Assembly: GCA_031291075.1 (NCBI GenBank)
Contig: JARLJS010000218.1
Location: forward strand, 1-43,483
Direction of reading: 5' to 3'
Length of the DNA stretch: 43,483 nucleotides
Source: Nevskia sp.
GTDB taxonomy: Bacteria; Pseudomonadota; Gammaproteobacteria; Nevskiales; Nevskiaceae
The position numbers were made by a program, and so were the translations under genes. Positions 10,405 to 30,547 of the stretch are shown here, in pieces (the first letter of the stretch is position 1; each line of letters begins with the position of its first letter). Below the pieces are notes generated by a model. The model saw nothing but the letters and a program-made list of their open reading frames with translations. It ran no database searches and was not told the origin of the DNA.

Positions 10405-10418
10405 TTGATCAGGATCAA
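10405..10418 (-). promoter_or_regulatory. FNR/ANR box upstream of the DUF2934 gene
   Basis: TTGATCAGGATCAA is a perfect match to the FNR/ANR consensus TTGAT-N4-ATCAA. With the box at -41.5 the transcript would start near 10370, leaving a 21-base leader. The hexamer at the expected -10 position (CAAGGT) is poor, so activation is less certain than for the other boxes in this window. Confidence 0.55.
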
Positions 10419-10442
10419 TCGAAGGCTAGTCAGGCAACCCAC

Positions 10443-10607
10443 TAGTGTGGTGAGTTGGAAATCCGTTTATTAAGTTGGGACTGTCGTCCCCGCGGAGGCG
10501 GGGTCCCAGTTCTGCTTTGGAGCTTCGTGGAAAATCGAAAACTGGATTCCCGCCTGCGCGGGAATGACGAAGAAATTTAGTTAACGAATTTCCAACTCAC
10601 CACACTA
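10443..10607. mobile_element. 165-bp MITE with IS630-type ends
   Basis: A short non-coding element bounded by TA dinucleotides. Its terminal inverted repeats read CTAGTGTGGTGAGTTGGAAA on the left and, as the reverse complement, on the right, then diverge slightly. Nested inside is a second pair of about 29-base arms (GTCGTCCCCGCGGAGGCGGG and the reverse complement ending CGCGGGAATGAC). The ends match 22-24 of 29 positions of the IS630 terminal repeat at 43346-43374, so the element was probably mobilised in trans by a related transposase. Confidence 0.85.
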
Positions 10608-10688
10608 GAACCTCGTGCGCGCCGTTGCCGGGCGGTTAGAAAAAGGCGCTCCGAACCGGGAGGGCTATGGTTACTGCGGAGCCTTGCT

Positions 10689-10841
10689 CTACGCCGCGAC
10701 CCCCGCCGCCGCCGTCTGCACCTTGACCAGGTCATCCAGCTTCGAATAGATCAGGTTGGCTTGGTACTGCGTCCCCACCTTTCGGGCCGAAACCTTATGC
10801 GCCGGCAGCTTCAGCGCCGCCGTAATCTTGTTCTCGATCTG
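10689..10841 (-). pseudogene. C-terminal fragment of an unknown gene
   Basis: On the minus strand 50 codons run from a stop (TAG, complement of 10842-10844) to TAG at 10689. The peptide is regular in composition (KITAALKLPAHKVSARKVGT then LIYSKLDDLVKV) and looks like the tail of a real protein, but I cannot assign it. It abuts the serine recombinase fragment exactly at its upstream end, which points to a rearrangement junction near 10842. Confidence 0.35.
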
Positions 10842-11285
10842 CTAGTTGACCAGGAAGGTCGCGGCGTCGGATTCAAGACGTTGACCGGCGCCGGCAGCAT
10901 CGACACAACCGGACCATCTGGGCGCCTGGTGTTTACGATCTTCGCTGCCATAGCCGAGTTCGAGCGCGATCTGATCCGTGAACGCACCCGCGCCGGTCTG
11001 GAGGTAGCGTGCAAGAGGGGGCGGATAAGGGGCCGACCGAAGGCATTGGACGAGTGGGCGCGGAGGCAAGCGAAAGCGCTACTGCGAGACCTGGAGAGCA
11101 CTTGGGAGGACGTTGCAACTCGACTAGGGGTAGGGGTGGCGACATTTTATCGGCCGTTTCCGGGTGGACGCCAGGAACTCATGTACGCCGCAAGGCAGGA
11201 GTTTAAGGGCCAAGCCGGCGGTACCGGTCACGACAAGACGGTAGTTGGGGTATGCTTGTTTCCGGGGTATGCCGAGAAAGAGTGA
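10842..11285 (+). pseudogene. truncated serine recombinase (resolvase/invertase)
   Basis: The readable part starts at LVDQEGRGVGFKTLTGAGSI and continues through GRLVFTIFAAIAEFERDLIR, ERTRAGLEVACKRG and a helix-turn-helix (STWEDVATRLGVGVATFYR). This is the second half of a Tn3-type resolvase/DNA invertase. The N-terminal part with the catalytic serine and arginines is missing; the bases upstream encode an unrelated sequence on the other strand. The frame ends at 11285, overlapping the GGDEF gene start by 17 bases. It cannot catalyse recombination but could still bind DNA if expressed. Confidence 0.75.
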
Positions 11286-12288: not shown

Positions 12289-12293
12289 CAAGC

Positions 12294-12413
12294 GTGGTGG
12301 TCTGCCTACTCGGAATTGTGTTGACAGTGTTTTCGATGACCGGGATCTACATCTGGCTGAGAAAGCGGCGAGCTAGAATTTTCTGCGACGCGGACCGCTC
12401 GAAAAGCGTTTGA
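12294..12413 (+). pseudogene. remnant of a PepSY-type transmembrane protein
   Basis: In one frame the DNA reads VVCLLGIVLTVFSMTGIYIW followed by LRKRRAR. This is the characteristic last transmembrane helix of PepSY-associated membrane proteins (LTVFSVTGxYIW-x-KKRRAR). Only about 25 recognisable residues remain, followed by unrelated codons to a stop at 12411-12413. It starts five bases after the GGDEF stop. It is too short to function and indicates a deletion. Confidence 0.5.
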
Positions 12414-12501
12414 ATCCCACCTCGACGTCGGGTCCCGCACTGTCATCGCCGTAATCCGTACCGGCGAGGATCCCGCACACATCCCGGCCGCATGTCGAGG
12501 C

Positions 12502-13065: not shown

Positions 13066-13156
13066 GTCACACCTCCACGTCCGCCCGCCATATGGGCACC
13101 GAAAAGACAAGCGCAGCTCTGCGATGGCGCCCGCTGCTTCAATCCACGCGCGATCA

Positions 13157-14188
13157 TCAGCCGAGCGCGGCCTTCAGGATCGCACGGCGGACCAGCGTCT
13201 CGAACAGCGGCAGCTTGTACGCGTTCTTGGCCAGCGGCGTGGCGCCTTCCAGGGCGGCCCGCCCCGCCTCCCGCGCCAGGTCCTCGCCGATGTGCTTGCC
13301 GGCGAGCAGGCCCTCCGCCTGCTTCGCCCGGTGCGGAACTGGTGCCGCCGTGCCGAGAACGAGCGCGGCCTTTCTGCAGCTTCCGTCCGGCGACAGCTCG
13401 AGCACGACGGCGACATCGGCGAGCGGCCAGTCGAAGGAATCCTTTTCGCCCTGCTTCAGGTGCGCCATGTGCGTGCCTGCCGGGAGCGCGGGCAGGCGGA
13501 TGGCCGTCAGGACTTCCCGCGGCTTCAGATCGTTTTCCCGCTGGAGGTCCCGGTCCGGTGGGCCGAAGAAGTCTTCGAGCAGCACCTGGCGCACGGCGCC
13601 CTGGGCATCCGCAAGCTCCACCGTTGCGCCCAGCGCCACGAGCGCCGTCGCCGCGGTGGAGGGATGGACGATCGCGCAAGGCCTGTTGTCGAAGATCGCG
13701 TGGTATTGGTTTTCGCCTGCGATCGCGAAGCAGTGGCCGCCCCCCTTTCTCAGGCAATGATATTCGTGCGCCCTGAAATACCAGCAGCGCGGCCGCTGCA
13801 GCAGATTGCCGCCGAGGGTGGCGACGTTGCGTATCTGGGGGCTTGCCGAAGCCCGCACCGCCTCGCTCAGCGCCGGATAGCGCCGCCGCACCACGGGATG
13901 ATCGGCAAGCCTGGACAGGGTGGCCATGGATCCGATGCGCAAGCCGCCGCCGGCCTCCTCAACGACGGCGTCGAGGCCCGGGATTCCGCGCAGGCTCACG
14001 ATCCTCGCGGGCGCCAGCAGTCCTTCCTTCAGCAGGTCGAGAACGTCGACCCCACCTGCCTTGAGGACCGCCGTGTCGCCAGCGGCCGCGTTGCCGGCAA
14101 GCTCTGTCATCGCATCCGCGACGGTCGCCGACACGGCCGCCGACGCCTCCTCGATCGTTCGGGCGTTCACCCAGGCGAAACGGTTCAT
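13157..14188 (-). CDS. FAD-binding subunit of a PaoABC-type aldehyde oxidoreductase
   Basis: A 343-residue member of the xanthine dehydrogenase FAD-subunit family (CO-dehydrogenase flavoprotein fold). FAD-binding blocks include LKAGGVDVLDLLKEG, SPQIRNVATLGGNLLQRPRC and AIRLPALPAG. The cysteine-rich insert RPRCWYFRAHEYHCLRKGGG, then HCFAIAG and RPCAIVHPST, supplies four cysteines as in E. coli PaoB (YagS), which carries a [4Fe-4S] cluster. The start at 14188 follows GGAGCTGAGACC. It is the last gene of the three-subunit operon, four bases after the large subunit gene. It passes electrons from the 2Fe-2S subunit to an acceptor in the periplasm. Confidence 0.88.
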   Translation of the reverse strand: MNRFAWVNARTIEEASAAVSATVADAMTELAGNAAAGDTAVLKAGGVDVLDLLKEGLLAPARIVSLRGIPGLDAVVEEAGGGLRIGSMATLSRLADHPVVRRRYPALSEAVRASASPQIRNVATLGGNLLQRPRCWYFRAHEYHCLRKGGGHCFAIAGENQYHAIFDNRPCAIVHPSTAATALVALGATVELADAQGAVRQVLLEDFFGPPDRDLQRENDLKPREVLTAIRLPALPAGTHMAHLKQGEKDSFDWPLADVAVVLELSPDGSCRKAALVLGTAAPVPHRAKQAEGLLAGKHIGEDLAREAGRAALEGATPLAKNAYKLPLFETLVRRAILKAALG

Positions 14189-14192
14189 GGTC

Positions 14193-16523
14193 TCAGCTCC
14201 TCGCCGGAATCTTGCCCAACGCGGCAAGGACAGCCGCAGGGGTCATGGGCGTGGTGCGAAGGCGGACCCCGATCGCGTTGTAGACCGCATTGGCGATCGC
14301 GGGCGCGGTCGCGATGTTGGAGGGCTCGGCGATGCCGTAGGCGTCCGTGGCGCTTTGCCCCTGGTAGTTCTCCAGGACCGCGACCTCGATCTCCGGGGTT
14401 TCGCGCGCTCCCAGCAGCTTGTATTGCTCCAGGTTCGGGTTGACCATGCGGCCGCTGTTCTGATCGATGATGCGCTCCTCGAACAGAGCGAAGGAGATGC
14501 CCATCAGCACGCCGCCCTGCACCTGGCTCTCGATCTGCCTGGGGTTCATGGGGCGGCCGCAGTCCTGCACCGCGACCACGCGCTCGACCCGGATGATCCC
14601 GGTCTCGGTGTCGACGGCCACCTCGGCGAACTGGACCCCGCCGAGGTCCTGCAGCGCGATGGCGGCATCGCCGATGCGGCGGCGGAACCCGCCGTAATCG
14701 TCGCTGCGGGAAGCCACCGCACTGATCCAGTCCGTGCGCAGGCGCGCGGCGGCGTCGGCGAACTTCATGCCGCGGCCCGGGTCGCCGAGGACCACGATCT
14801 TCCCGTCGCGCGCGGCCAGCTGTTCCGGAGCGGCGTTCAGCACGGGCGCCGCTTCGCGGCAGAGCGCCTGCAGGACGCGCCAGGCGGCGGTGCGGGCCGG
14901 CGGGGTGATGGAGGCGGTCGTGCGGCTGCCGTAGGAGGGCGGCCCGGCCGGAAACTCGGTGTCACCGATGCGCACCGTGATCGCCTCCGGGCGCAAACCC
15001 AGCACCTCGGCGACCACCTGGGCCAGGACCGTGCCGATGCCGGTCCCGATGTCCTGCACGCTCGACAGCACCTCGACCGAGCCGTCGCGCATTACACGCA
15101 CCTCGCAGGATGCGTTGATTTGCACATTGGCGCCCCAGAGGGATTGCGCCACGCCGAGGCCGCGCTTGACCGGGCCGGCATCGGCGCCGGACGCACGGCG
15201 CCGATGCCAGCCGATCCGGTCGGCGCCGATGCGTCGCTCCTCGCGTCTGACCGGGCTGGGATCGATGCGATCGCGCAACGCCAGGGGATCGATGGACAGC
15301 CGCCCGGCCAGCTCGTCGATCGCCTGCTCGAGCGCAAACGCGCCTTGCACGTTGCCCGGTCCGCGCATCGCGCACCCCGGCCCGGCGTTGATGAAGACAT
15401 CGTACTGCGCAGATTCGAAGTTCGGGCAGGCATACAGCGCTTCGGCGAAGCTTCCGACCCCCGCGCCGACGGCGACGCCGGCGGTGCCGTAGCTCAGCAC
15501 GGAGATCGCGGTGAGCGTGCCGTCGCGCTTCGCGCCGACGCGCAGCTGCTGCCACGTCCCTGGCCGATTGCCGGCGTCCATCTGTTCCTCTTCACGGTCG
15601 AGGACAAGGCGCACCGGCGCCTGCGCCTGACGCGACAGGGCGACGGCGAAGCGGCCGTAGTTGCCCAGGCTGGACTTCGATCCGAAGCCGCCTCCCATGC
15701 CGTCGACGATCACGCGCACACGGCTCAGCGGCAGGTCGAACGCGGCCGCCAGCTCATGCCGCACCCCGGCGGTGAACTGCGTGGACATGTAGACAGTCAA
15801 CCCGTCCGTACGCCAGTCGGCGACGATCGCATGCGGCTCCAGGCAGCAATGGGTTTGCACCGCGGTGCGGTACTCGCCCTCGACCACGATGTCGGCCTCA
15901 GCAAGGCCCTGCGAGATAACGCCGCGAGTGACCGTCGCGGGTCCGCGTACATTGCCGTGGAGCGGTAGCCCGGCCGGTGCGGGAAAGCCATGCGCATCGC
16001 CGGCCGGCGCCGAGGCGCTGTCGTGCACCGGCGGGGAGGCGGGGTTGCGCGCGACGTCGAGGTCTGCCACGAAGGGCAGCGGTTTGTAGTCGACGCGGAT
16101 CAGTCGCAGGGCCTCTTCCGCCGCCGCCGGGGAATCGGCCGCAACCGCCGCCACGGGCGCTCCGACATAACGCAGAATGGCGTCCGGCGTTGCGATCGGC
16201 AATATCGCGCGCACTCCGGGAACAAGCGCGGCGGCGACGACGTCGATGGCCGCGACCGCAGCGTGCGGTAACGGCGAGCGCAGGATGCCGCCGTGCAACA
16301 TATTCGGCAGGCTGATGTCCACCGTGAAACGGATTGCACCCGTCACCTTGGCGCGGCCGTTCTGGCGCGCGGTCGGCTTGCCGATCACCGCCAGCTCGGC
16401 GTTGGGTGGCAAGGGTGGCGGCTCGTCGGAAGGAATCTGCCGCTTCACTTCGCTGAGCCCGACGCTGACGATGCCGCTCGGGAATGCTTCGGTGCGTTGT
16501 GTCTCGTCCGTCGCCATAGTCAT
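14193..16523 (-). CDS. molybdopterin-binding large subunit of a PaoABC-type aldehyde oxidoreductase
   Basis: A 776-residue molybdenum hydroxylase subunit. It has the a/b hammerhead domain (AKVTGAIRFTVDISLPNMLH) and molybdopterin-binding regions (GMGGGFGSKSS, CAMRGPGNVQGAFALEQAID, QDIGTGIGTVLAQVVAE). The catalytic base is conserved as Glu733 in GIAEPSN. Such enzymes hydroxylate aldehydes to acids, with the molybdenum cofactor as redox centre. The ATG at 16523 overlaps the stop of the small subunit gene (ATGA), indicating translational coupling. PaoC (YagR) is the closest E. coli type judged by subunit pattern. No PaoD/XdhC-like cofactor-loading chaperone is encoded nearby. Confidence 0.9.
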   Translation of the reverse strand: MTMATDETQRTEAFPSGIVSVGLSEVKRQIPSDEPPPLPPNAELAVIGKPTARQNGRAKVTGAIRFTVDISLPNMLHGGILRSPLPHAAVAAIDVVAAALVPGVRAILPIATPDAILRYVGAPVAAVAADSPAAAEEALRLIRVDYKPLPFVADLDVARNPASPPVHDSASAPAGDAHGFPAPAGLPLHGNVRGPATVTRGVISQGLAEADIVVEGEYRTAVQTHCCLEPHAIVADWRTDGLTVYMSTQFTAGVRHELAAAFDLPLSRVRVIVDGMGGGFGSKSSLGNYGRFAVALSRQAQAPVRLVLDREEEQMDAGNRPGTWQQLRVGAKRDGTLTAISVLSYGTAGVAVGAGVGSFAEALYACPNFESAQYDVFINAGPGCAMRGPGNVQGAFALEQAIDELAGRLSIDPLALRDRIDPSPVRREERRIGADRIGWHRRRASGADAGPVKRGLGVAQSLWGANVQINASCEVRVMRDGSVEVLSSVQDIGTGIGTVLAQVVAEVLGLRPEAITVRIGDTEFPAGPPSYGSRTTASITPPARTAAWRVLQALCREAAPVLNAAPEQLAARDGKIVVLGDPGRGMKFADAAARLRTDWISAVASRSDDYGGFRRRIGDAAIALQDLGGVQFAEVAVDTETGIIRVERVVAVQDCGRPMNPRQIESQVQGGVLMGISFALFEERIIDQNSGRMVNPNLEQYKLLGARETPEIEVAVLENYQGQSATDAYGIAEPSNIATAPAIANAVYNAIGVRLRTTPMTPAAVLAALGKIPARS

Positions 16524-17152
16524 GCCTGCCGCGCTTTCGCCGCGGTCAGCGTGGCGGCAACGACATGTGGATAGGTGCCGCAACGGCAGTAATGCCCGCT
16601 GATGGCGGCCCGGACCTCCTCGGCGGCCGGGTCCGGCCTGTTACGAAGAAGTGCGGCGCAGCTCATCACCAAGCCGGGCGTGCAGTAGCCGCATTGCAAA
16701 GCATCGTGCTCGATGAACGCGGCTTGTACAGGATGCAGGGTTTCGCCTTGCGCGAGGCCCTCTATCGTCGTGACACTGCGCGCGCCGATGTCGATGGCGA
16801 GAATCATGCACGAGCACACGGTGACCCCGTCGATCCAGACCGTGCAAGCGGAACAGGCGCCGCGATTGCATCCGATCTTGGTTCCGGTGAGGCCCAGGGG
16901 GCCGCGCAGCGCTTCAGCCAGGGTCACCCGTGGCTCCAGCCGGAGGGTGCGTTCCACCCCGTTGACCTTGAGCGTGACCGGAACCGGTTCCGGACCCGCA
17001 ACCGCAACCGGTACACCGCTGCCCTCCGCCGCTTTCGCATCATCGAGAAAGCCGGAAGCTGCATCGACCATGGTCGTTCCCACGGCAGACCGCAGAAACG
17101 TCCGCCGAGATATTCCCCGTTCCCTGCTTCCGCTATCGTCAGGATTTAGCAT
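16520..17152 (-). CDS. 2Fe-2S subunit of a PaoABC-type aldehyde oxidoreductase, Tat signal
   Basis: A 210-residue iron-sulfur subunit. The N-terminus has a twin-arginine motif SRRTFLR (residues 15-21) followed by a moderately hydrophobic stretch, so the folded, cofactor-loaded complex is expected to be exported through Tat to the periplasm, as for E. coli PaoA. The plant-ferredoxin-type cluster site is CNRGACSACTVWIDGVTVC; the second [2Fe-2S] site is CGYC...CRC near the C-terminus. It is the first gene of the operon. A Crp/Fnr-like box at 17248-17261 and a CTAAATG -10-like sequence lie upstream. Confidence 0.92.
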   Translation of the reverse strand: MLNPDDSGSRERGISRRTFLRSAVGTTMVDAASGFLDDAKAAEGSGVPVAVAGPEPVPVTLKVNGVERTLRLEPRVTLAEALRGPLGLTGTKIGCNRGACSACTVWIDGVTVCSCMILAIDIGARSVTTIEGLAQGETLHPVQAAFIEHDALQCGYCTPGLVMSCAALLRNRPDPAAEEVRAAISGHYCRCGTYPHVVAATLTAAKARQA

Positions 17153-17247
17153 GTCGATCTCCTCTCACGGGATCCTCGGATCGCAACGGAAACAACAAGC
17201 CGGCCTTCGCGCAGCCTGCATTTAGCCACGAAAGTAGGACGGGGGTT

Positions 17248-17261
17248 ATGATCCATGTCAA
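17248..17261 (-). promoter_or_regulatory. Crp/Fnr-type box upstream of the aldehyde oxidoreductase operon
   Basis: Read on the minus strand, TTGACATGGATCAT matches TTGAY-N4-ATCAA at nine of ten fixed positions. If centred at -41.5, the -10 hexamer should cover 17220-17225, where the minus strand reads CTAAAT (TAAATG one base on). The predicted leader to the 17152 start is about 60 bases. The divergent CarS-like gene begins about 190 bases away on the other side, too far for the same geometry. Confidence 0.45.
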
Positions 17262-17945: not shown

Positions 17946-17961
17946 GCGATCCGGCCAGAAG

Positions 17962-18927
17962 CTACTCGTCCAGCACGTAGGCGAAAATCAGCGGCGCCAC
18001 GATGGTGGCGTCGCTGTGGATCACGTACTTGGGTGTTTCCGGCTCCAGCTTGCCCCAGGTGATCTTCTCGGTCGGCAGGGCGCCGGAGTAGCCGCCGTAG
18101 CTTTCCTGCGCGTCCGTGATCTGGCAGAAATAGCGCCACACCGGCACGCCCTCGCGCAGATCCTTGTTCAGCAGCGGCACGATGCAGATGGGGAAGTCGC
18201 CGGCGATGCCGCCGCCGATCTGGAAGAAGCCGATCGGGCGTTGGCGCGCATTCGTGCTGTACCAGCGGGCCAGTTGTTCCTGGTACTCGACGCCATGGCG
18301 CATGATCTGGCGGCGGATTTTGCCGCGCATGCGGTGCGACGAGTAGAAATTGCTGAGGGTGGAATCCTCCCAGCCGGGGACCACCAGCGGGAGGTTCGCT
18401 TCCGCCGCCGCCAGCACCCAGCTGTGCTCGGGTGGAATCCGCATGAGCTTGCGGAACTCCGGTTGGAGCACCGCCTTGAACACGTACTCGTGCGGGAAGC
18501 AGGCCTGGTTCGCTTCGTCCTCCTCCTGCCACAGCGGCAGGATCAGGCGCTCGATCACGCGCATCGCCTCGTCCTCGGGGATGCAGGTATCGGTGACGCG
18601 GTTCATGCCCTTCCTGCCCAGCTCGCGTTCCTGCTCGGGAGTCAGGTCGCGGTAGTTGGGCAGCCGCATGTAGCGGTCGTGCGCCACCGCGTTGAACAGG
18701 TCCTCCTCCAGGTTCGCACCGGTGCAGGATATGCCGGCCACCTTGCCTTGGCGGATCATCTTGGCCAGGGAGACGCCCAGTTCCGCCGTGCTCATCGCGC
18801 CGGCCAGCGTCATGAACATCGACCCGCCCTGTTCCAGCAGCCTGCAGTAACCGATCGCCGCCTCGCGCAGCGCCGCGGCATTGAAATGGCGATAGTGGGT
18901 GTCGATGAAAGCGCGCAGACTTGGCAT
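17962..18927 (-). CDS. deoxyhypusine synthase-like protein
   Basis: A 321-residue protein of the deoxyhypusine synthase family. Eukaryotic and archaeal enzymes move the aminobutyl group of spermidine to a lysine of eIF5A/aIF5A. Bacterial members act on small amines or are uncharacterised, since bacteria lack eIF5A. Recognisable blocks are MFMTLAGAMSTAELG, GISCTGANLEEDLFN, FFQIGGGIAGDFPICIVPLL and YSGALPTEKITWGKL. Lys293 in ITWGKL corresponds to the lysine that forms the enzyme intermediate in eukaryotic DHS, so activity is plausible. No ribosome-binding site of note. A perfect Fnr-type palindrome lies about 100 bases upstream at 19024-19037. Confidence 0.85.
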   Translation of the reverse strand: MPSLRAFIDTHYRHFNAAALREAAIGYCRLLEQGGSMFMTLAGAMSTAELGVSLAKMIRQGKVAGISCTGANLEEDLFNAVAHDRYMRLPNYRDLTPEQERELGRKGMNRVTDTCIPEDEAMRVIERLILPLWQEEDEANQACFPHEYVFKAVLQPEFRKLMRIPPEHSWVLAAAEANLPLVVPGWEDSTLSNFYSSHRMRGKIRRQIMRHGVEYQEQLARWYSTNARQRPIGFFQIGGGIAGDFPICIVPLLNKDLREGVPVWRYFCQITDAQESYGGYSGALPTEKITWGKLEPETPKYVIHSDATIVAPLIFAYVLDE

Positions 18928-19023
18928 CGGTTCGGCTTCCTGGGAGTGGCGGCGCCCGCAACCGGTCGTGAGGCCCTCCGATCGCTGACCTGCCCAGGGT
19001 AGACCTGCCGGCGAGCGGCTTCA

Positions 19024-19037
19024 TTGACTTCAGTCAA
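19024..19037 (-). promoter_or_regulatory. Crp/Fnr-type box upstream of the DHS-like gene
   Basis: TTGACTTCAGTCAA is a perfect palindrome of the TTGAC-N4-GTCAA form used by Fnr/Dnr/FixK-type regulators. Placing it at -41.5 puts the minus-strand hexamer TACCCT (18996-19001) exactly at -12 to -7; it keeps the key T, A and final T. The predicted leader to the start codon is about 62 bases. Confidence 0.5.
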
Positions 19038-19142
19038 CCGCCGCCGGACCGTTACATCTCCTTGCTTGATGGACGCGATGCGCTCGTCCGTGGTCAGTGG
19101 TCTGGGCGCAGGTGCGTTCCACGCTGACCCCTGGCGCGCGGC

Positions 19143-19313
19143 TCAGGTCTCCTTCACCGCCTCGAAGTCCGCCTTCTCCCGCACCGAACAGTCCGGGCAC
19201 TGCCAGTCGTCCGGCAGGGATTCCCACCGCGTGCCCGGCGGGTAGCCCTCATGGGGCTCGCCCTTGGCCTCGTCGTAAATGTGACCGCAGCAGGGGCAGC
19301 GGTAGCGTGCCAT
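19143..19313 (-). CDS. rubA: rubredoxin (AlkG-type electron donor)
   Basis: A 56-residue rubredoxin with two CxxC knuckles, RCPCCGHIYD and QCPDCSVREK, that hold one iron. The aromatic and acidic residues between them (GTRWESLPDDW) are typical. It starts 14 bases after the alkB stop, so the pair is an operon. Rubredoxin carries electrons from a rubredoxin reductase to AlkB; no reductase gene is present in the window. Confidence 0.93.
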   Translation of the reverse strand: MARYRCPCCGHIYDEAKGEPHEGYPPGTRWESLPDDWQCPDCSVREKADFEAVKET

Positions 19314-20564: not shown

Positions 20565-20606
20565 AATAATACAGCGATCGGAAGTCGCCGTGTTGATCTG
20601 GATCAA
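20565..20606 (-). promoter_or_regulatory. class II-type FNR/ANR promoter of alkB
   Basis: TTGATCTGGATCAA (20593-20606) is a perfect FNR/ANR site. On the minus strand TATTAT (20566-20571) lies downstream at the distance expected for a -10 when the box is centred near -41.5; transcription would begin near 20558, about 52 bases before the alkB ATG. There is no good sigma70 -35, as usual for activator-dependent promoters. Confidence 0.65.
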
Positions 20607-20733: not shown

Positions 20734-21795
20734 TCAGCAGATCCGCGGCAGCAGTTCCCCGCCCGGCAGGTCGAGGATGCGGCGCGAGCCCACCCGGCTG
20801 CGCAGGATCACCTCGGCGCGGGCGCGGCGCTCCACCCGGCCGATCAGGCTGGCGCCGGCGCCGAGCGGATGCACGCGCAGCACCTCCAGCGTGCGCGCCG
20901 CCTGGTCGGGCGGCAGGACCATCAGCATCCGTCCCTCGCAGGCCACCTGCAGCGGGTCCAGGCCCAGCACCTCGCAGGCGCTGGCCACGGCCTCGCTCAC
21001 CGGGATGGCGGCTTCGTCCACTTCGATCGCCAGGGCGCTCGCCTCGGCGATCTCATGCAGCACGGCGGCGAGTCCGCCGCGGGTGATGTCGCGCAGGCAA
21101 TGCGGGCGCAGGCCGGCGCCGAGCAGGACCTGCACCAGCCCGCCGAGGGGGGCGCAGTCGCTCTCGATCGGCGGCTCGAACTCCAGTCCTTCGCGGCAGG
21201 CCATGATGGCGATGCCGTGGCGGCCGACGTCGCCGCTGACCAGCACGGCGTCGCCGTCCTGCACGTGCGCGGGATGGATGTCGATGCCCGGCTCGACCAG
21301 GCCGATGCCGGCGGTGTTGATGTAGAGGCCGTCGCCGGCGCCGCGGTCCACCACCTTGGTGTCGCCGGTGACGATGCGCACGCCGGCGATGTCGGCCGCC
21401 TCGCGCATCGAGCGCAGCAGCGCGGCCAGCTCGCCGCGCGGCAGGCCTTCCTCGATGATCAGCCCGGCGCTGAGCCAGAGCGGGCGCGCGCCGGCCGCGG
21501 CGAGGTCGTTGACGGTGCCGTACACCGCCAGCCTGCCGATGTCGCCGCCCGGGAACACGCGCGGCCGTACCACGTAGGAGTCGGTGGTGAAGGCCAGGCG
21601 GCGGCCATCGGTTTCGATGACGGCGGCGTCGTGCTGCCGCGTCAGCGCCTGGCCAGTGAGCGCCGGCAGCACCAGCTCGCGCAGGAGCTGCTGCATCAGG
21701 CGCCCGCCGCCGCCGTGCGCCAGGCGGATGGTGTCGGCGCCGTCGTCGGGCAGGGGGCAGCTCAGCTCGAAGGGGGCCGGCCGCTTGGCGGTCAT
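20734..21795 (-). CDS. hypE: hydrogenase maturation factor HypE
   Basis: A 353-residue PurM-like ATPase. HypE dehydrates the carbamoyl group placed on its C-terminal cysteine by HypF to a thiocyanate, the source of the CN ligands of the NiFe site. The C-terminus ends PRIC, with Cys353 as the acceptor. The glycine-rich [13 protein letters not shown], the GDTKVV segment and DITRGGLA are typical. ATGA overlap with hypD. It is the last gene of the hydrogenase operon. Confidence 0.97.
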
Positions 21796-22907
21796 GTCGC
21801 GCTTGCCGTCGCCGGCTGCGCCTCGCTGCGGCGGTAGCGGTAATAGGCGGCGCAGGCACCCTCGGCCGAAACCATGGGCGCTCCGAGCGGACGCTCCGGC
21901 GTGCAGGCGGTGCCGAAGGCGCCGCACTGATGCGGCTTCTTCACGCCGCGCAGGACTTCGCCGGCGACACAGCGCGGGTCGTCGTCGGCGCGCACGCCGG
22001 AGAGGTCGAAGCGTCGCTCGGCGTCGTAGTCGTGGAAAGCCGGCCGGAGTGCGAGCCCGCTGCGCGGCAGCTCGCCGATGCCGCGCCAGCGCCGCGGCAC
22101 CTCCTCGAACACCTCGCTCACCATGGCCTGCGCCTGCCGGTTGCCGTCGCTGCGCACCACCCGCGCGTAGGGGTTTTCCAGGCGCGCCTCGCCGCGCTCG
22201 AGCTGGCGGATGCAGAGCAGCACGCCGAGCAGGATGTCCACCGGCTCGAAGCCGGTGATGACGATGGGCACGCGCAGGCGCTCCACCAGCGCCCGGTACT
22301 GTTCCTCGCCCATCACCGCGCAGACGTGGCCGGCGGCGAGGAAGCCGTCGACGCGGCTGTCGGCGCTGGCGGCGATGGCTTCGATGGCCGGCGGTACCAG
22401 CACGTGCGACACCAGCAGCGAGAAATTGCGCAGGCCGAGGTTGTGCGCCTGCAGCACGGCCAGGGCGTGCGCCGGCGCGGTGGTCTCGAAGCCCACCGCC
22501 AGGAACACCACCTCCAGCTCCGGCTCCTGCTGCGCCAGCTTCACCGCGTCCAGCGGCGAATAGACCATGCGTACGTCGCCGCCCTCGGCCTTGGCCTGAG
22601 CCAGGCTGCCGCGCGAGCCGGGCACGCGCAGCATGTCGCCGAAAGTGCACAGCGCCGTGCCCGGGCGCAACGCCAGGGCGATGGCGCGGTCGATCGCCTC
22701 GGTGGGCGTCACGCATACCGGGCAGCCGGGACCGTGGATCAGCTCCACGTTCTCCGGCAGCAGGGTGTCCAGGCCGTGGCGCACGATGGAATGGGTCTGC
22801 CCGCCGCACACTTCCATCAGGCGCCAGGGCTTGGTCGCCGCCGCGCGGATCGCCGCCGCCAGCGAGGCCACCGCGTCGCGGTCGCGGAACTCGTCCAGGT
22901 ATTTCAT
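21792..22907 (-). CDS. hypD: hydrogenase maturation factor HypD
   Basis: A 371-residue iron-sulfur protein, the scaffold on which Fe(CN)2CO is assembled with HypC. Conserved blocks are [26 protein letters not shown] (the two redox cysteines) and [10 protein letters not shown], with the C-terminal cysteines [16 protein letters not shown] and FGTACTP for the [4Fe-4S] cluster. ATGA overlaps both with hypC upstream and hypE downstream. Confidence 0.97.
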
Positions 22908-23140
22908 GGCTCGTCCTCCTCCAGCGATTCCAGCAGGGCCAGCACCCGCTGCGCCTCCTCGGCGTCGATCGCGCTGATGGCGATGCCGGCATGCACCAGT
23001 ACGTACTGCCCAACCTTCACCTCGGGCAGGCAGGCCAGGGAGATTTCCTTCACCAGCGGCCCGAAGGCCACGCGGCCTCGCCGGAACAGCGGGTCCTCGC
23101 CGGTCACGCTCAGCAGCTGTCCCGGCACGGCTAGGCACAT
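22904..23140 (-). CDS. hypC: hydrogenase maturation chaperone HypC
   Basis: A 78-residue HypC/HybG/HupF-family chaperone. It begins [10 protein letters not shown]; Cys2 binds the Fe(CN)2CO unit and carries it to the large subunit precursor. The remainder ([21 protein letters not shown]) is typical. GGAGGG lies seven bases upstream of the ATG, and the gene overlaps the end of hypF by ten bases. Confidence 0.96.
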
Positions 23141-25413
23141 GGCGATCCCTCCAGGCAGGCTTGCGCCACCGCGAGCTGGCCCAGTGCCAGCGCGCCGTCG
23201 TTGGGCGGCAGGCGCAGTGGCAGGTGTGCCTCGCAGCCGCGCGCGCGCAGCGCCGCCAGGCTCAGCTCCAGCAGCAGCCGGTTCTGGAAGCAGCCGCCGG
23301 CGAGCACCACCGGGCGCGGCGCGAAAGCCGCGGCGACTTCGGCGATGGCCGCGGCGAGCGCGCGGTGGAACGCGGCGGCGACGGCCGTCGTGTCCTGCCC
23401 GCGCTGCCGGATCAGGCCGAGCACCGGCGACCAGTCGATGCGCCAGGGCGTCACGCCGCGGTCGAGCGGGAACGCCAGCACCGGCACGGCGCCCTGGTGC
23501 CGTTCGGCCGCGAACTGCAGGGCCATCGCCGCCTGCCCCTCGAACGTGGTCACCGCGTGCAGGCCGAGCAGCGCGGCCACCGCGTCGAACAGGCGTCCGG
23601 CGCTGCTGGTGCGTACGCACTGGACGCCGCGCGCGAGCATCTGTTGAAGGGTGGTGCGCTCGCGCGTGGTGAAGCTGTGCTCGAGCAGCGCTCCGGCTTC
23701 ACGGTCCGGTGCCGCATGCAGCAGGCCGAGCGCGGCGCGACGCGGTTCGCGCATCGCCGCTTCGCCGCCCGGGAGCAGGAACTCGCGCAGGCTGGCCACG
23801 CGCCGGCAGTCGGTGCGCGTCGCCAGCAGGAACTCGCCGCCCCACAGGGTATCGTCGTCGCCCAGCCCGGTGCCATCCCAGGTCACGCCCAGCACCTCGC
23901 CGTCGAGCGCGTGCTCGGCCATCACCGCCGCGACGTGGGCGTGGTGATGCTGCACGGCCAGCACCCGGCTACCGCTTTCATGCGCAAACGCGCTGGTGCG
24001 GTAGTCGGGATGGCCGTCGCAGGCGAGCGGCCGCGCCGGCAGTCCGAGCATCGCGGGCAGGGTCTCGGCGAGGTGGCGGTAGGCGGCCACCGCTTCCACG
24101 CTGTCCAGGTCGCCGACGTGCGGGCTGACCACGGCCCCGGCGGGACCGCCGAGCGCGAGTGTTGCCTTCTGGTGTCCGCCCAGGGCCATGCCGGTCACTG
24201 TATGCGATTCCAGGCCGGGCAGCACCAGCGGCGCCAAGCCGCGGGCGCAGCGCAGCACCTGCATCCGCCCGCCGGCGAGCTGGACCACGGAATCGTCCAC
24301 CGGCTGCAGGATCGGGCGGTCGTGTACCAGGAACAGGTCGGCGATGCCGCGCAGCCGCGTCAGTGCCTCGTCGCCGTCGCGGCACAGCGGCTCGCCGCTG
24401 CGGTTGCCGCTGGTCGCCACCAGCGGCAGCCCCCTGTCGCGCAGCAGGAGCTGGTGCAGCGGCGTGTACGGCAGCATCACGCCCAGCCAGGGATTGCCCG
24501 GCGCGATCAGCTCCGGCAGGGTGCCGCGCGAGCGCAGCAGCACGATTGGTGCGGCGGGGCTGCACAGCGCTGCGCGGGCCGGTTGCGGCAGCTCGCAGTG
24601 GCGCTTGATCTCGGTGACGCCGTCCAGCATCACCGCCAGCGGCTTGTGCGGGCGCTGCTTGCGCGTGCGCAGCGCGGCGATGGCGTCGGCGTTGCGCGCG
24701 TCCACCATCAGATGGAAGCCGCCCAGCCCCTTCACCGCCACTACGGCGCCGCCGCGCAGCGCCTGCACCGCCTCCCGCAGCGCATCCTCGCGCCGTGCCA
24801 GCACGGCGCCGTTGCCGTCCCACAATTCCAGTTGAGGACCGCAGCCGGCGCAGGCGTTGTTCTGGGCGTGGAAGCGCCGGTCGTCCGGATCCTCGTATTC
24901 GGCCGTGCAGTGCGGGCAGGGCGCGAAACCGGCCAGCGCCGTGTTGGCGCGGTCGTAGGGCAGGGCCGCCAGCGCGCTCCAACGCGGGCCGCAGTCTGGG
25001 CAGGCGATGAACGGGTAGCGATGGCGCCGGCTGGCCGGATCGAACAGTTCGGCGCGGCAGGCCTCGCACAGCGCCAGGTCGAGCGGCACGCTCAGGTCCG
25101 CGCCGTCGCCGGCCGCGCTGTCATGGATGGCGAAGCCGTGGCGGCCGTCGGCGGCGACGGGCCAGCTGCGCAGCCCCTCGATGTGCGCACGCGGCGGCGG
25201 CCGCTCGCGCAGCTCCCGCACGAACGCCTCCAGCTGCGGTGGCGGTCCTTCCACCTCGATGGTGACGCTGTTGCGGTCGTTGCGTACCCAGCCCTCCATG
25301 GCGTGGCGGCCGGCCAGGCGGTACACGAAGGGCCGGAATCCCACACCCTGTACCTGGCCTCGGACCTCGATGCGCAGCCGCTGCGCGATGGCCGGCGGTG
25401 CGGCGTCGTTCAT
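23131..25413 (-). CDS. hypF: hydrogenase maturation carbamoyltransferase HypF
   Basis: A 760-residue protein that uses carbamoyl phosphate and ATP to carbamoylate HypE. Domains in order: acylphosphatase-like (about 10-95, [16 protein letters not shown]), two zinc knuckles ([15 protein letters not shown] and [15 protein letters not shown]), a YrdC-like domain (about 200-390, [12 protein letters not shown]) and a Kae1-like domain with HHHAH ([13 protein letters not shown]) and GGCFQN. Length is normal. It starts 43 bases after the endopeptidase gene. Confidence 0.97.
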
Positions 25414-25456
25414 GATGCCGCCGCGCTATTGCGGTTCGATCCGCATCGGCGACATC

Positions 25457-25933
25457 TCATGCATGTTCGCAGGTTCCCTCTTGCTTCAGTTCCGCGCTCA
25501 GCATCTTGATCACGCGCCGGCCGGCCGCTTCGATTTCTGGGCTCAGACCGCGGCCGTGATCGAAGGTGCGGCCCTCGACGCCGATCAGCGTCAGCCGCTC
25601 CGGCAGTTGATCGAGGCTGCGGCCCAGCGCCACCGCGTCCGCCAGGTTCAGGCTATGGCTGGAGCACAGGGCCTGCTGCGGCAGGGCGTGTTCCAGCGCG
25701 TCGATATGCAGCACCTCGCCGGGTTGGCCGGCCCCGCACAGGGCATCGAACACGAAGGCGGTTTCCGCCCCTTTCCAGGCTTCGATCAGTTCCAGCACCT
25801 CGCGGGCGCAGACCAGCACGGCGACATCCGGCAGATCGGCGTCGCGCAGCGCTCCGGCGATCCAGGGACCGATGCCGTCATCGCTGCGCCATTCGTTGCC
25901 GATGCCGGCCAGCAAGGTCTTCCCCCGGCTCAT
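25457..25933 (-). CDS. hydrogenase maturation endopeptidase
   Basis: A 158-residue protease of the HybD/HyaD/HycI family. It opens with TLLAGIGNEWRSDDGIGPWI, whose GIGN and DDG residues bind nickel in the pre-large subunit, and ends with VEGRTFDHGRGLSPE. It removes the C-terminal peptide of the large subunit after Ni insertion; the large subunit here has a matching 14-residue extension. ATGA overlap with the large-subunit gene. Confidence 0.92.
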   Translation of the reverse strand: MSRGKTLLAGIGNEWRSDDGIGPWIAGALRDADLPDVAVLVCAREVLELIEAWKGAETAFVFDALCGAGQPGEVLHIDALEHALPQQALCSSHSLNLADAVALGRSLDQLPERLTLIGVEGRTFDHGRGLSPEIEAAGRRVIKMLSAELKQEGTCEHA

Positions 25934-27246
25934 GCCGCGACGCCGTCCACGCGCTCGACCGTGAGCTTGAGGAAGTGCGCCGAGCAGGAAATGCAGGGGT
26001 CGAAGTTGCGGATGACCTGCTCGCAGCCATGGCGCAACTCGTCTTCCGGCATGTCCAGGCGGTCGCTCACGAACTGACGCAGGTCGCCTTCGATGGCCGC
26101 CTGGTTGACGGCGGTCGGCGGCACGATCTTGGCCGCGGTGATGAGGCCCTGCTCGTCGATCGAGTAGCGGTGGTAGCAGGTGCCGCGCGGCGCCTCCGTG
26201 CAGCCGTAGCCGGTGCCCGCGCGGGGCGTCACTTCGAAGCAGGGCCGGTCGGGCGCCACGTAGCCGTCGATGATGCGCGCCGATTCCTCCAGCGCGAACA
26301 GTATCTCCACGCAGCGCAGGGCGATGCTGCGGTGGGGATTGCGCCAGGCGTCCTCCAGGCCGTGCTCCTTCAATGCCGCCCGCGCCAGCGGGCCGAGGCG
26401 GTCCTGGTTGAGCGCGATGCGCGCGGCCGGTCCCACGCAGGCCAGCGGCGGGTTGGCGGCGCCGAGGCGGCGGCTGTGCAGCGCGGTGGAGTGCGCCACA
26501 TGCTCCTCCTGCAGCACCTGCTCGTATTCGCGGATCGGGATGTCCACCCCGTCGGTGGAAGCGTAGCGGCCCTCGTTGAGGGGGTATTCGTCCGCATGCC
26601 GCAGGGCGAAGTGCTCGTGGGCGGTGCGCAGGTCGGGCGCCTTCAGGCCGGCGACCAGCTTCAGCAGGCGCTGCGTGGCCCCCATCGCCCAGTCCAGCTC
26701 GCCTCGCCGGGCCTTGAGTTCCGCTACGGTGGGCAGCTTGTAGAAACCGCCGACACGCACGTTGATCGGGTGGATCTCGCGCCCGCCGAGCAGCCGCAGC
26801 AGGTCGTTGCCGACCGCCTTCAGCCGCAGGGCGTCCTTCACCAAGTCCGGATGGTCCTTGGCCATGGTGATGGCGTCCGGATAGCCGAGGAAGTCCGGCA
26901 GGTGCAGCATCGCCACGTGCAGTCCATGGCTTTCGATCCACTCGCCGCAGTACAGCACGCGGCGCAGGTCCCGCAGCGGGCCGTCGACCTTCACCCCGCA
27001 GATATCCTCCATCGCGTGGGCCGCGCTCATCATGTAGGCGATCGGGCAGATGCCGCAGATGCGCGAGGTGATGTCCACCGCCTCGGTGAAGTGGCGCCCG
27101 CGCAGCAGCGCCTCGAAGAAGCGCGGCGGCTCGAAGATGTTGAGCTCGACCCGGTGCACGCGGTCGCGGTCCAGCGTGATGTGGAGGGCCGCCTCGCCCT
27201 CGACGCGGGCGATGTAGTCGACCTTGATGGTTCTGGTGGTGGTCAT
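25930..27246 (-). CDS. [NiFe]-hydrogenase large (catalytic) subunit, probably group 3b
   Basis: A 438-residue catalytic subunit. The four nickel-ligand cysteines are intact: RICGIC with Cys64 and Cys67, and DPCISC with Cys418 and Cys421, followed by His424. A 14-residue tail after His424 is the expected cleavage product of the endopeptidase. The lack of a membrane anchor, together with neighbouring beta (iron-sulfur) and gamma (FAD/NAD(P)) subunits, indicates the soluble bidirectional NADP-linked sulfhydrogenase type (HydABGD/HyhBGSL). Direction of H2 turnover cannot be told from sequence. ATGA overlaps on both sides. Confidence 0.93.
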
Positions 27247-28013
27247 GGCGTTTCGTGGGCGCGGCTTTCCTCGCGGAACTCCGGCGCCCAGGCGTTGAAG
27301 CTGCGGTAGAAGCGCACCAGCTTGTCGCCCTGCATCCCGAGCTTCTGCAGTGGCGCGGCGAGCGAGGCGGTGGGCGTTTCCTTCGGCCCGTAGCAGCCGT
27401 AGCAACCGCGGTCGTGGCGCGGGCACAGGGCGCCGCAGCCGGCGTGCGTCACCGGGCCCAGGCAGGGCGTGCCGTGGGCCACCATCACGCACACCGTGCC
27501 GCTGCGTTTGCACTCGGTGCAGACGCTGTGCGAGGCGACCGCCGGGCGGCGGCCGTTGACGAAGGCGTTGATGACCTCGACCAGCTGCGCCTTGTTGATC
27601 GGGCAGCCGCGCAGCTCGAAATCGACGCTCACCTGCTCGGCGATCGGCGTGGAGGTGGCGAGGGTGGAGAGGTAGTCGGGGCGGGCATACACGGCGGCGG
27701 CGTACTCGCCGGCGTCGGCGAAATTGCGCAGCGCCTGGATGCCGCCGGAGGTGGCGCAAGCGCCGATCGTCACCAGGTAGCGCGACTGCGCGCGGATGGT
27801 GCGGATCTGCTCCAGGTGCTCGGGCGTGCTGATCGAGCCTTCCACCAGCGACAGGGTGTAGGGCCCGGGCCGCATGCTGCTGCTGGCCTCCGGGAACATG
27901 GCGATGTCCACCGCGCCGGCCACCGCCAGCAGTTCCTCCTCGCAGTCGAGCAGGCTGAGCTGACAGCCGTCGCAGGAGGCGAACTTCCATACCGCCAGGG
28001 TCGGTCGGGTCAT
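27243..28013 (-). CDS. [NiFe]-hydrogenase small (electron-transfer) subunit
   Basis: A 256-residue soluble small subunit without a Tat signal, as expected for group 3. The proximal-cluster motif is [15 protein letters not shown] near the N-terminus, followed by [11 protein letters not shown] and the [10 protein letters not shown] loop. The C-terminal cysteines ([35 protein letters not shown]) supply further iron-sulfur ligands. The ATG shares one base with the TGA of the preceding gene. The last codons overlap the large-subunit start as ATGA. Confidence 0.92.
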
Positions 28014-28846
28014 CACAGCTCCGGGACGATCAGGCCGCCGTGCAGCCGGTCGAAGCGGAACACCGGGCCGTCGCGGCAGATGAAGTGCGGGCCGTAGAAG
28101 CAATGGCCGCAGTAGCCGACGGCGCATTGCATGTGGCGCTCCATCGACAGGTAGATCGCGGACTGCTCCATTCCCTCCTGCTGCAGGGCCAGCACGGTGA
28201 ATCGCATCATCACCTCCGGGCCGCACACCACCGCCAGGGTCTTGGCGGGATCGAGGTCGATGGAAGGCACCAGGTGGGTGACCGCACCGATCTCGCCCGG
28301 CCAGCCGGGCGAAGCGTTGTCCACGGTGACGCGCATGCGGATGTTGCAGTCCCGCTGCCAGCGGGCGATGTCGGTCGGGTAAAGCAGGTCCGCCGGCTTG
28401 CGCGCGCCATAGATGATATCGACGCGGCCGTAGTCGGCGCGGTGCAGCGCCAGCCACTCGATCAGCGGCCGTAGCGGCGCCAGCCCCAGGCCGCCGGCGA
28501 CGATCACCACGTCGTGGCCACGCAGTTCCTCCACCGGCCAGCCGTTGCCGAACGGGCCGCGCACGCCCAGCACAGTGCCCGGCGCGATCTGTTCCAGCAC
28601 CCGCGTCACCGCGCCGACCGCGCGCACCGTGTGCAGGATGCCGCCGTCCGGGGCGTGGCCGCTGATGGAAATGGCGACCTCGCCCTGGCCGAACTGGTAC
28701 AGCATGTTGAACTGGCCCGGCTTGAACGGCGGGGCCACGCCCTCCAGCGGTGCCATCTGCATGCTGAACACGTCGCTGGTGTCGCGGCGCAGGTCGCGCA
28801 CGCGCCAGGGCTGCGGCACCCAGGGATCGGAGCCGTCGGCGTTCAC
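28013..28846 (-). CDS. hydrogenase gamma subunit, FAD/NAD(P)-binding
   Basis: A 277-residue ferredoxin-NADP reductase-like subunit. An FAD-binding barrel (about 10-100, [13 protein letters not shown] with SISGHA) is followed by the NAD(P) domain ([19 protein letters not shown]). The C-terminal cysteine motif [17 protein letters not shown] holds a [2Fe-2S] cluster, as in PyrK and HydG. It links the hydrogenase to the nicotinamide pool. ATGA overlap with the gene for the cyclic-nucleotide-binding protein. Confidence 0.92.
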
Positions 28847-29313
28847 CGGCGCGGCTCCGTGGGATGGGCGTAGACCTCGGCGAGCTGCAGGCGGCTGGCC
28901 TGCAGCCGGTTCATCACCGAGCGTACCGCCCGTTTGAGGAACTTGTAGCCGAAGTCGTGGTTGTTATCCATCGCCAGTCGCAGGCACTGGCAGTCCACCG
29001 CGAGGGTGGTGACCGGCTCGAGCACGCGGGCGTCGAAGAACGAGTGGTACGGCGGCACCAGCCAGGACAGGCCCGCCACGGCGCCACCTTCCAGGGTCTG
29101 GATGGGCATGCAGACCCCGCGCGTGTCGCAGGTCTCCAGCATGATGCGTCCGTGGAGCACGAAGTGGCATTCGCGGATCTCCTGGTTCTGGCGCATCAGC
29201 ACTTCGTTCTTGCCGAACTGCCGTTCATGCACGCAGGGTTCCAGCACGGCCAGCAGCGCCGGGTCGAAGCCGGCGAAGAACGGGTGGGCGGCGAGCTGCT
29301 CCAGGGGTGTCAT
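28843..29313 (-). CDS. stand-alone cyclic-nucleotide-binding-domain protein
   Basis: A 156-residue protein with a Crp/cNMP-type beta-roll (about residues 10-125: [56 protein letters not shown]) and a C-terminal helix. No helix-turn-helix follows, so it is not a transcription factor. It is embedded between the beta and gamma subunit genes with ATGA overlaps on both sides, which implies a stoichiometric role, perhaps a regulatory or assembly subunit. The usual phosphate-binding cassette (RxA) is not evident, so the ligand is unknown. Confidence 0.82.
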
Positions 29314-30431
29314 GGCTTCTCCGCGTCGGCGCGCAGGGCGGCGATTTCCTCGGTCAGGTCGATGCCCGGCGGGCACCAGGTGATGCAGCGGCCGCAGCCG
29401 ACACAGCCCGAAGTGCCGAACTGGTCGATCCAGCCCGCCAGCTTGTGGGTCAGCCAGTGGCGGTAGCGCGAGGAGGTGCTGACGCGCGCGCTGCCGCCCG
29501 CCATGTGCGTGAACGACTGGGTGAAGCACGAAGCCCAGGTGCGCTCGCGCTCGGTGGTGGAGCCGTCCAGGCTGGTGACGTCCTGCACGTCGGAACAGAA
29601 GCAGGTCGGGCACACGCTGGTGCAGTTGCCGCAGCTCACGCAGCGCTCGGCCACCGCCTTCCAGCGCGGGCTTTCCGCGTTGCCGTAGAGCAGCGCGCGG
29701 ATTTCCGTGGTGTCGAGCTGGCGCCCCATGGACGCCGCGGTGGCGGCCACCAGGGCGTCGGCCTGGCTGTGGTCGGCCTGGGCGGCGGACGGCGCGTCCA
29801 GTTCGGCCAGCACCTCGGCGCCGGCGTCGCTGCCGGCTTCCACCAGCAGGTCGTGGCGCTGCGCGTCGAGCAACTCGGTCAGCGCCAGGTCGAAGCCGCG
29901 GCTGGCGCGCGGGCCGCTGTTCATCGACACGCAGAAACAGGTCGCGCCGGCCACGCCGCAGTTGACCGCGACGGTGAAGATCTCCTTGCGTCGCGCCGCG
30001 TAACGGGAGTCGACGGCCGCGCCGCCGGTGAACACCCGGTCCTGCACGGCGATGGCCTGCAGCTCGCAGGCGCGCACGCCGATGAAGGCGCGCCGTGGCG
30101 GCGGTGGTGGTGGCTCGATCGCGAAGCCGTTTTCGCCACGCTGCCCCCGCCATAGCGTTTCGTGGGGCGGGAACAGGTATTTCTTCCAGGACTGCGGGCC
30201 GACCGTGTAGCCGAACAGGGCGCGGTCGCCGCCGGCTTCGACCCGGTAACGGCCCGGCCCCTGCCGGTCGTGCCAGCCGATGGGCAGGTCCGCCATCGAT
30301 TTCAGCTCGTCGTAGACGATGGCGCCGTCGCGCAGGCGCGGGCCGACGACGGCGTAACCGCGCCGCTGCAGCGCGTCGAACAGCGCATCGAGTTGAGCCG
30401 CCGGCAGGAGCTTTGGTCCGTTCGAAGCCAT
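29310..30431 (-). CDS. hydrogenase beta subunit, dicluster iron-sulfur protein
   Basis: A 373-residue electron-transfer subunit of the sulfhydrogenase beta (HydB/HyhB) family. Two [4Fe-4S] motifs are visible: Cys264/267/270/274 in [11 protein letters not shown] and Cys343/346/349/353 in [11 protein letters not shown]. Extra cysteines lie at [12 protein letters not shown] and FIGVRACEL. It is the first gene of the operon. The ATG lies about 68 bases from a predicted transcript start in the shared control region with usp. Confidence 0.9.
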
Positions 30432-30533
30432 GCGCTGTCCCTAGCCGTACGAGGGTGGAGGGAAAACCTACCACGGTGCCGTGAAGTCATGTTGACGCCG
30501 TCGCATCATCCTCGCAAGCGCCGCAAGGCGGAT

Positions 30534-30547
30534 TTGACCTGTGTCAA
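30534..30547. promoter_or_regulatory. Crp/Fnr-type box between the hydrogenase operon and usp
   Basis: TTGACCTGTGTCAA is a perfect TTGAC-N4-GTCAA palindrome between divergent genes. For usp (plus strand) the expected -10 window contains CTAAAT (30570-30575), with TAAATA one base on. For the hydrogenase operon (minus strand) the window contains GATGAT (30505-30510). Both sit within one base of class II geometry, so one dimer could activate both directions. Confidence 0.55.

Follow-up and report, generated by a model that had tools for sequence, protein, structure and literature searches.

Crp/Fnr-type boxes on a Nevskia contig as probable members of a large FNR/Anr-type regulon

Boxes and adjoining genes in the window

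The window analysed here, one whole contig (C103; JARLJS010000218.1) of 43,483 nucleotides (nt) from the 5.65-Mb, 302-contig genome of a Nevskia sp. (GCA_031291075.1), carries palindromic boxes of the Crp/Fnr type between genes for a DUF2934 protein, a molybdenum oxidoreductase, a deoxyhypusine-synthase-family enzyme, AlkB with rubredoxin, a universal stress protein and a hydrogenase. Five such boxes had been listed by a first-pass annotation, and a pattern scan found all five where that annotation had placed them: the boxes at 10405, 19024, 20593 and 30534 match TTGAYNNNNRTCAA exactly, and the 17248 box (minus strand) matches it with one mismatch. The boxes and the genes beside them are:

10130..10348, minus: DUF2934 small protein (PF11154, E 5.8e-11)
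10405..10418, minus: FNR-type box TTGATCAGGATCAA; -10-like CAAGGT at 10377-10382 (minus)
13160..14227, minus: FAD subunit of oxidoreductase (FAD_binding_5, CO_deh_flav_C)
14196..16583, minus: molybdopterin-binding oxidoreductase subunit (MoCoBD_1/2; all NCBIfam matches below cut-offs)
16523..17152, minus: iron-sulfur (Fe-S) subunit of molybdenum oxidoreductase (Fer2_2/Fer2; twin-arginine-like N-terminus SRRTFL)
17248..17261, minus: FNR-type box with one mismatch, TTGACATGGATCAT; -10-like TAAATG at 17219-17224 (minus)
17965..18927, minus: deoxyhypusine-synthase-family enzyme (PF01916, E 1.4e-40)
19024..19037, minus: FNR-type box TTGACTTCAGTCAA; -10-like TACCCT at 18996-19001 (minus)
19146..19313, minus: rubredoxin (PF00301, E 1e-19)
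19331..20506, minus: AlkB alkane monooxygenase (FA_desaturase; solved alkane 1-monooxygenase 8f6t, E 7.5e-157)
20593..20606, minus: FNR-type box TTGATCTGGATCAA; -10-like TATTAT at 20566-20571 (minus)
25933..27240, minus, approximate start: [NiFe] hydrogenase large subunit (PF00374; ShyA/HydA below cut-off)
27243..28010, minus, approximate start, frame open further upstream: hydrogenase small (delta) subunit (Oxidored_q6; ShyD/HydD below cut-off)
28016..28846, minus: hydrogenase gamma subunit, HydG/ShyC-like (NCBIfam matches all below cut-off)
29313..30431, minus: hydrogenase beta subunit, HydB-like (Fer4_22; AsrA, HydB models below cut-off)
30534..30547, unstranded: FNR-type box TTGACCTGTGTCAA between the divergent usp and hydrogenase genes; -10-like TAAATA at 30571-30576 (plus)
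30613..31044, plus: universal stress protein, usp (PF00582, E 2.1e-24)

The gene names proposed in the first pass (DUF2934, deoxyhypusine-synthase family, rubredoxin, an Fe-S/Mo/FAD oxidoreductase with the twin-arginine-like SRRTFL, AlkB, Usp and hydrogenase) proved right. Deoxyhypusine synthases use a catalytic lysine in a W-K context, with which phmmer aligned the WGK of the window protein when it was compared with solved members of the family; for this polyamine-type enzyme no equivalog-level match to deoxyhypusine or homospermidine enzymes was found in NCBIfam, the best reaching 123.7 of 450 bits. AlkB has three further homologues of 58–63% identity and one partial homologue of 36% in the same genome. 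The hydrogenase operon runs beta-gamma-delta-alpha, with four subunits of which beta and gamma are sulfhydrogenase-like; its nearest models (ShyA/HydA, ShyD/HydD, AsrA/HydB and AsrB/ShyC/HydG) were all below cut-offs, and we take it to be a group 3b [NiFe] enzyme.

The first pass had judged these boxes too many for chance, and the counts agree. Matches with at most one mismatch numbered 7 in the window, compared with a mean of 1.30 and a maximum of 4 in 100 dinucleotide shuffles, while the 4 exact sites stand against 0.59 expected from the genome mean (Poisson tail 0.003, uncorrected for the choice of window). Other contigs with at least 4 exact sites were C40 (8), C194 (5) and C1, C222, C247 and C259 (4 each). 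The -10-like hexamers of the five promoters lie within about 1 base (claimed in the first pass for four of the five) of the distance typical of class II promoters, in which the box is centred at -41.5 and the -10 hexamer begins 29–30 bases from the box centre; the full TANNNT at offset 29/30 occurs in the window at the 19024 box only. Some 63 nt separate the centre of the 10405 box from the start codon of DUF2934, and towards the hydrogenase the 30534 box has only a weak GATGAT (30505-30510, minus).

Genome-wide sites, promoter geometry and candidate regulators

A scan of the whole genome, which the first pass had put forward as a check, found 77 exact sites for the pattern as opposed to 4 for its reversed control, and 76 of the 77 lie outside predicted genes, in fetched stretches that are 80% coding. 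Since these sites are spread over 37 contigs, the separate local regulon of five targets that had been proposed was rejected; the five boxes are instead part of a set of at least 77 exact sites. For the one-mismatch variant with terminal CAT, to which the 17248 box belongs, there were 46 hits compared with 11 for reversed controls, and the regulon is therefore probably larger than 77 sites.

Promoter geometry was examined in all 154 directions around the exact sites. TANNNT began at offset 29/30 in 27 of them, compared with 0.75 per offset elsewhere (offsets 8–51 minus 28–31), and 1000 shuffles gave a mean of 1.8 and a maximum of 8. Among 79 box-gene pairs the hexamer stood at the class II offset in 19 and at offsets 14–27 in none. 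The peak recurred in a congener, G011, where 19 of 100 directions had TANNNT at 29/30, compared with 0.225 per offset elsewhere (shuffle mean 1.0, maximum 5); found independently in two species, it points strongly to class II promoters. Targets were defined as the 88 genes whose start lies within 240 nt of a box; the distance from box centre to start codon had a median of 98.5 nt and fell at 55–110 nt for 50 of the 88. Because the gene caller was crude (it missed DUF2934), all counts of box-gene pairs are approximate.

Could the window boxes simply be chance palindromes? Poor gene-by-gene conservation, described below, would fit that explanation, but the excess of 77 sites over 4 controls, the intergenic placing and the class II -10 peak in two species all disfavour it, and we regard it as hardly credible.

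The genome also encodes regulators of the appropriate family, another point that the first pass had named for checking. HTH_Crp_2 gave 11 matches, 7 of them over the cut-off and two of these at contig ends. Two FNR-like paralogues, on contigs C194 and C205 and 67% identical, each have an N-terminal CxxCxxxxC motif, an additional cysteine in QVCV-P and the recognition helix ETVCR; when the C194 copy was aligned with solved FNR, its QVCV-P cysteine fell on the cysteine of VC-IP. Both paralogues thus carry what appears to be the oxygen-sensor cysteine pattern, with four putative ligands, and they may be divergent members of the FNR group. The C194 gene has a box of its own 142 nt upstream. Another Crp/Fnr protein, encoded on C93, is without the N-terminal cysteine cluster.

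Box-linked genes and known low-oxygen systems

Outside the window there are 84 targets, of which 70 were scanned with Pfam (the other 14 comprise 7 lying beyond 180 nt and 7 left out by choice), and 11 of the 70 had no family at E 0.001. All functional names are family-level labels. Genes of predicted respiratory or nitrogen-oxide function encode CcoN (COX1, cbb3 oxidase), qNorB, NnrS, an Rrf2 regulator, NapC/NirT, cytochrome c and a multicopper oxidase with cytochrome c that we read as NirK-like. A second, persistence-like group comprises putative Usp, two Hsp20 proteins, Cpn60 chaperonin, ribonucleotide reductase (presumably class II, by its length), the S30AE hibernation factor, FtsH and Lon, together with DksA-type and CBS proteins, two bacterial globins, a nitroreductase, PPK2, a PEP-synthase type enzyme, PTA/PTB and two WS/DGAT proteins. 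Candidate oxygen-using targets are the AlkB of the window, a desaturase and KshA, and a single-domain response regulator is also box-linked. Three related small proteins each stand behind a box (L116 2874-3245, L119 8080-8481 and L151 5585-5953); the two that were scanned both match DUF6455, an uncharacterised family that thus seems to be tied to the regulon.

The set resembles the Pseudomonas Anr regulon, for which passages of PMC6588701 describe the same box type, denitrification genes and high-affinity oxidases, and alkB among the predicted targets. It differs from that regulon in having two FNR paralogues and many box-linked protein-quality and storage genes, and the terms hydrogenase and universal stress are absent from the main text of PMC6588701.

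A second comparison is with Burkholderia cenocepacia, in which, according to passages of three papers (PMC6127331, PMC9104464, PMC9733578), two Anr paralogues, Anr1 and Anr2, are present and the double mutant cannot survive anoxia; two Anr-type paralogues are common to both organisms, and the present set would correspond to the low-oxygen persistence locus. The lxa locus of that species shares with the present set, at family level, Usp, Hsp20, DUF1488, BON, cytochrome c, phosphate acetyl/butyryl transferase and the metallo-beta-lactamase superfamily, all seven of which adjoin boxes here, and an aldo/keto reductase outside the lxa range is shared with B. cenocepacia as well. The lxa genes are described as a single locus of 50 genes; in the 302-contig assembly of the present genome the box-linked genes of these families are spread over several contigs. 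Direct Anr control of lxa is not stated in the passages of the three papers. DUF1488 is there a separate protein; in the present genome a 761-aa protein 170 nt from a box (L112 643-2925, minus) combines a pyruvate-kinase barrel with DUF1488. A difference from lxa is that no phosphofructokinase or phbB was found among the 70 scanned targets.

On contig C40, eight exact boxes fall within 28 kb (13192-41142; L118, L119), beside genes for ribonucleotide reductase, the hibernation factor, the PEP-synthase type enzyme, FtsH, Hsp20, a phosphoribosyltransferase, DUF6455 and DUF6763. This stretch has the look of an lxa core island.

DosR of mycobacteria is a heme-sensing two-component system with a different box, and its targets include wax-ester/TAG synthase, a CBS protein and ribonucleotide reductase. 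Unlike it, the system described here is of the Crp/Fnr type, and the likeness is functional only. Shared with DosR regulons, as far as passages of PMC8125079 and PMC6127331 describe them, are Usp, alpha-crystallin, flavin-sequestering Acg-type proteins and a hydrogenase, the M. smegmatis Dos regulon including the hydrogenase Hyh; the likeness of lxa to DosR is itself already in print (PMC6127331). With Anr boxes at alkB, the lxa locus, Anr paralogues and DosR control of Hyh all published, the nearest description, by analogy, would be an Anr/lxa-type low-oxygen persistence regulon. The claim that the regulon was undescribed accordingly falls as to kind, and it stands for some of the targets: searches among openly licensed papers, one of them not specifying a box, yielded no report that directly places an FNR box upstream of a hydrogenase of this kind, a wax-ester synthase or a deoxyhypusine-synthase-like gene, and no record of hydrogenase, deoxyhypusine-synthase-like or molybdenum-enzyme targets in such a regulon. 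As far as searched, what is new is some of these targets and the link with regulator duplication described below.

Interpretation, relatives and neighbouring features

Because of the 77 sites compared with 4, their intergenic placing, the class II -10 hexamers, the FNR-like regulators and the nature of the box-linked genes, we consider it probable (roughly 85%) that an FNR/Anr-type activator uses the boxes as its operators and that the contig is part of a large FNR/Anr-type regulon. Under low oxygen, one or both of the paralogues on C194 and C205 would be expected to hold a [4Fe-4S] cluster and dimerise; the dimer would occupy TTGAY-N4-RTCAA, some 41.5 bases upstream of where transcription starts, and bring RNA polymerase to a class II promoter, in which a -10 element is present and no -35 is needed. 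The genes for DUF2934, the Tat-type (twin-arginine) molybdenum oxidoreductase, the deoxyhypusine-synthase-like enzyme, one AlkB isoform and usp would thereby be switched on, as would, less surely, the hydrogenase operon. The same switch would serve at least 77 sites, with genes for high-affinity respiration, nitrogen-oxide metabolism and an lxa/DosR-like persistence set, and the regulon as a whole would respond to low oxygen.

Several observations, from the regulators and from a comparison set of 61 genomes (our own and 60 relatives), weigh against this interpretation. The paralogues score 120.7 and 116.3 of 228 bits, below the cut-off of the NCBIfam Fnr model that is their best match (NF008365), and their third N-terminal cysteine is spaced by 4; the corresponding spacing in E. 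coli FNR is 5. AlkB, found in 57 of the 61 genomes, is an oxygen-using enzyme and as such an odd target for a low-oxygen activator, and no exact box was found at any of the 29 alkB loci read with 1.5-kb flanks (a match was present in 56 other genomes, and 8 of the loci read belong to the genus). Likewise, 29 loci with homologues of the Fe-S subunit (from 43 other genomes with a match) were read with 1.5-kb flanks, and an exact upstream box was absent from all 29; these homologues are 39–54% identical and perhaps paralogues, and one locus (L256) has an exact palindrome downstream of the gene. Finally, for 72 of our 88 targets no box-linked counterpart was found at the 51 of 77 G011 sites that were read, and the number of sites in the genus shows no steady rise with FNR copy number.

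The alkB results bear on a different function of the box, namely that at some window promoters, alkB above all, it serves for repression and not for class II activation. The requirement of AlkB for oxygen and the absence of a box from 29 of 29 relatives' loci speak for repression; on the other side, TATTAT starts 28 bases from the box centre, near the class II position, and passages of PMC6588701 provide a precedent, with Anr boxes before alkB and participation of alkB in micro-aerobic alkane degradation in P. extremaustralis. Repression is unlikely in our judgement, and activation by an FNR/Anr-type protein remains the preferred reading, which suggests that the bacterium reserves one of its several AlkB isoforms for micro-oxic conditions.

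Conservation in relatives, another of the checks named in the first pass, was mixed. The hydB gene was found in 2 of 61 genomes, our own and G011, and in G011 an exact box does lie upstream of it, although at least 350 nt away; that box is about 110 nt from a divergent gene, by eye a TonB-dependent receptor, and the interval from box to hydB holds a stretch of 42 residues resembling the N-terminal end of a different box-linked protein. No close alkB was found in G011 (best E 1.5e-20), and the deoxyhypusine-synthase-like gene was found in none of the 60 relatives. With a match defined as 35% identity over half coverage and a start within 350 nt of a box, 16 of the 88 targets had a box-linked homologue in G011, two of the 16 matching the same gene. 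Boxes on individual window genes are mostly not conserved, and gene-by-gene conservation is poor; what the species share is the kind of regulon, whose membership seems to change rapidly. Weak conservation is usual for such regulons, given that Pseudomonas genomes have 92–136 predicted Anr boxes each, of which only 11 are common to five species (passages of PMC6588701). Three genomes of the same order and another family (G055, G056 and G060) have 47, 51 and 38 exact boxes compared with 2 reversed controls each, and may be a second group with a large regulon.

Regulator copy number was compared across 18 genomes of the genus, a close FNR copy being defined as at least 50% identity over most of its length. 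The three genomes with two or three copies had the most sites (77, 77 and 40), and the remaining 15 had 8–26, with 8–16 in the six with one copy and 8–26 in the nine with none, so that the link is with two or more copies. In G001 (26 sites, completeness 86%) a short open frame gives a match of 60 residues, and this genome was counted as having no copy. The coincidence of the top three by sites with the three multi-copy genomes would have a chance of 1 in 816 for independent genomes; these genomes are not independent, and they were grouped once the data had been seen.

This association also bears on which protein binds. FNR, DNR and FixK boxes are nearly alike, and the boxes might be bound mainly by a Crp/Fnr protein without an Fe-S cluster (nitric-oxide-sensing or FixK-like), such as that on C93, the signal being nitric oxide or a phosphorelay instead of oxygen; the further Crp/Fnr proteins of the genome and the box-linked qNorB, NnrS, Rrf2 regulator and single-domain response regulator fit such a scheme. 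However, site numbers are highest in those species of the genus that have the largest number of cysteine-bearing FNR paralogues, and many box-linked genes (Usp, Hsp20, ribonucleotide reductase) are not specific to nitric oxide, which makes this alternative quite improbable next to regulation by the FNR-like paralogues.

More tentatively, and with the odds somewhat against it, the duplicated FNR-type regulator may have become in this genus the master switch of a DosR-like dormancy programme (hibernation factor, Usp, Hsp20, ribonucleotide reductase, wax-ester synthases, CBS protein and hydrogenase) that grew from about 10 to about 80 sites and captured laterally gained genes, such as those for the hydrogenase and the deoxyhypusine-synthase-like enzyme, via class II boxes. 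The genus lends itself to experiments on a presumed global oxygen regulator with a regulon that varies nearly tenfold in size from species to species, the largest regulons going with at least two regulator copies, and it adds a group 3b-type hydrogenase, a deoxyhypusine-synthase-like enzyme and a Tat-type molybdenum oxidoreductase to the Anr/lxa set as candidate low-oxygen targets.

The other features of the window are:

3319..5898, minus: ClpB-type chaperone (AAA_2, ClpB_D2-small, Clp_N)
6087..6100, minus: one-mismatch box TTGATCAGGATCAT, possibly a sixth site; CACATT at 6059-6064 (minus)
20737..21795, minus: HypE-like protein (AIRS domains), a name that we presume, partly from the gene's position
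21795..23138, minus: HypD (PF01924)
23134..25413, minus: HypF (profile search)

The 6087 box, absent from the first-pass list, lies 195 nt upstream of the ClpB start codon and has CACATT at class II distance, and for these reasons it may be a sixth box, with ClpB as a possible target. Another one-mismatch match, at 9373, falls within a patatin open reading frame. Beside the 10405 box lies a 35-nt inverted repeat (10442-10608) with arms 89% complementary and 97 nt apart, enclosing a GC-rich palindromic stretch and having the look of a small mobile element. A truncated resolvase at 10761-11282 (profile positions 75–144 of 145 plus a weak HTH), adjoining a GGDEF gene, suggests a past insertion near the boxes.

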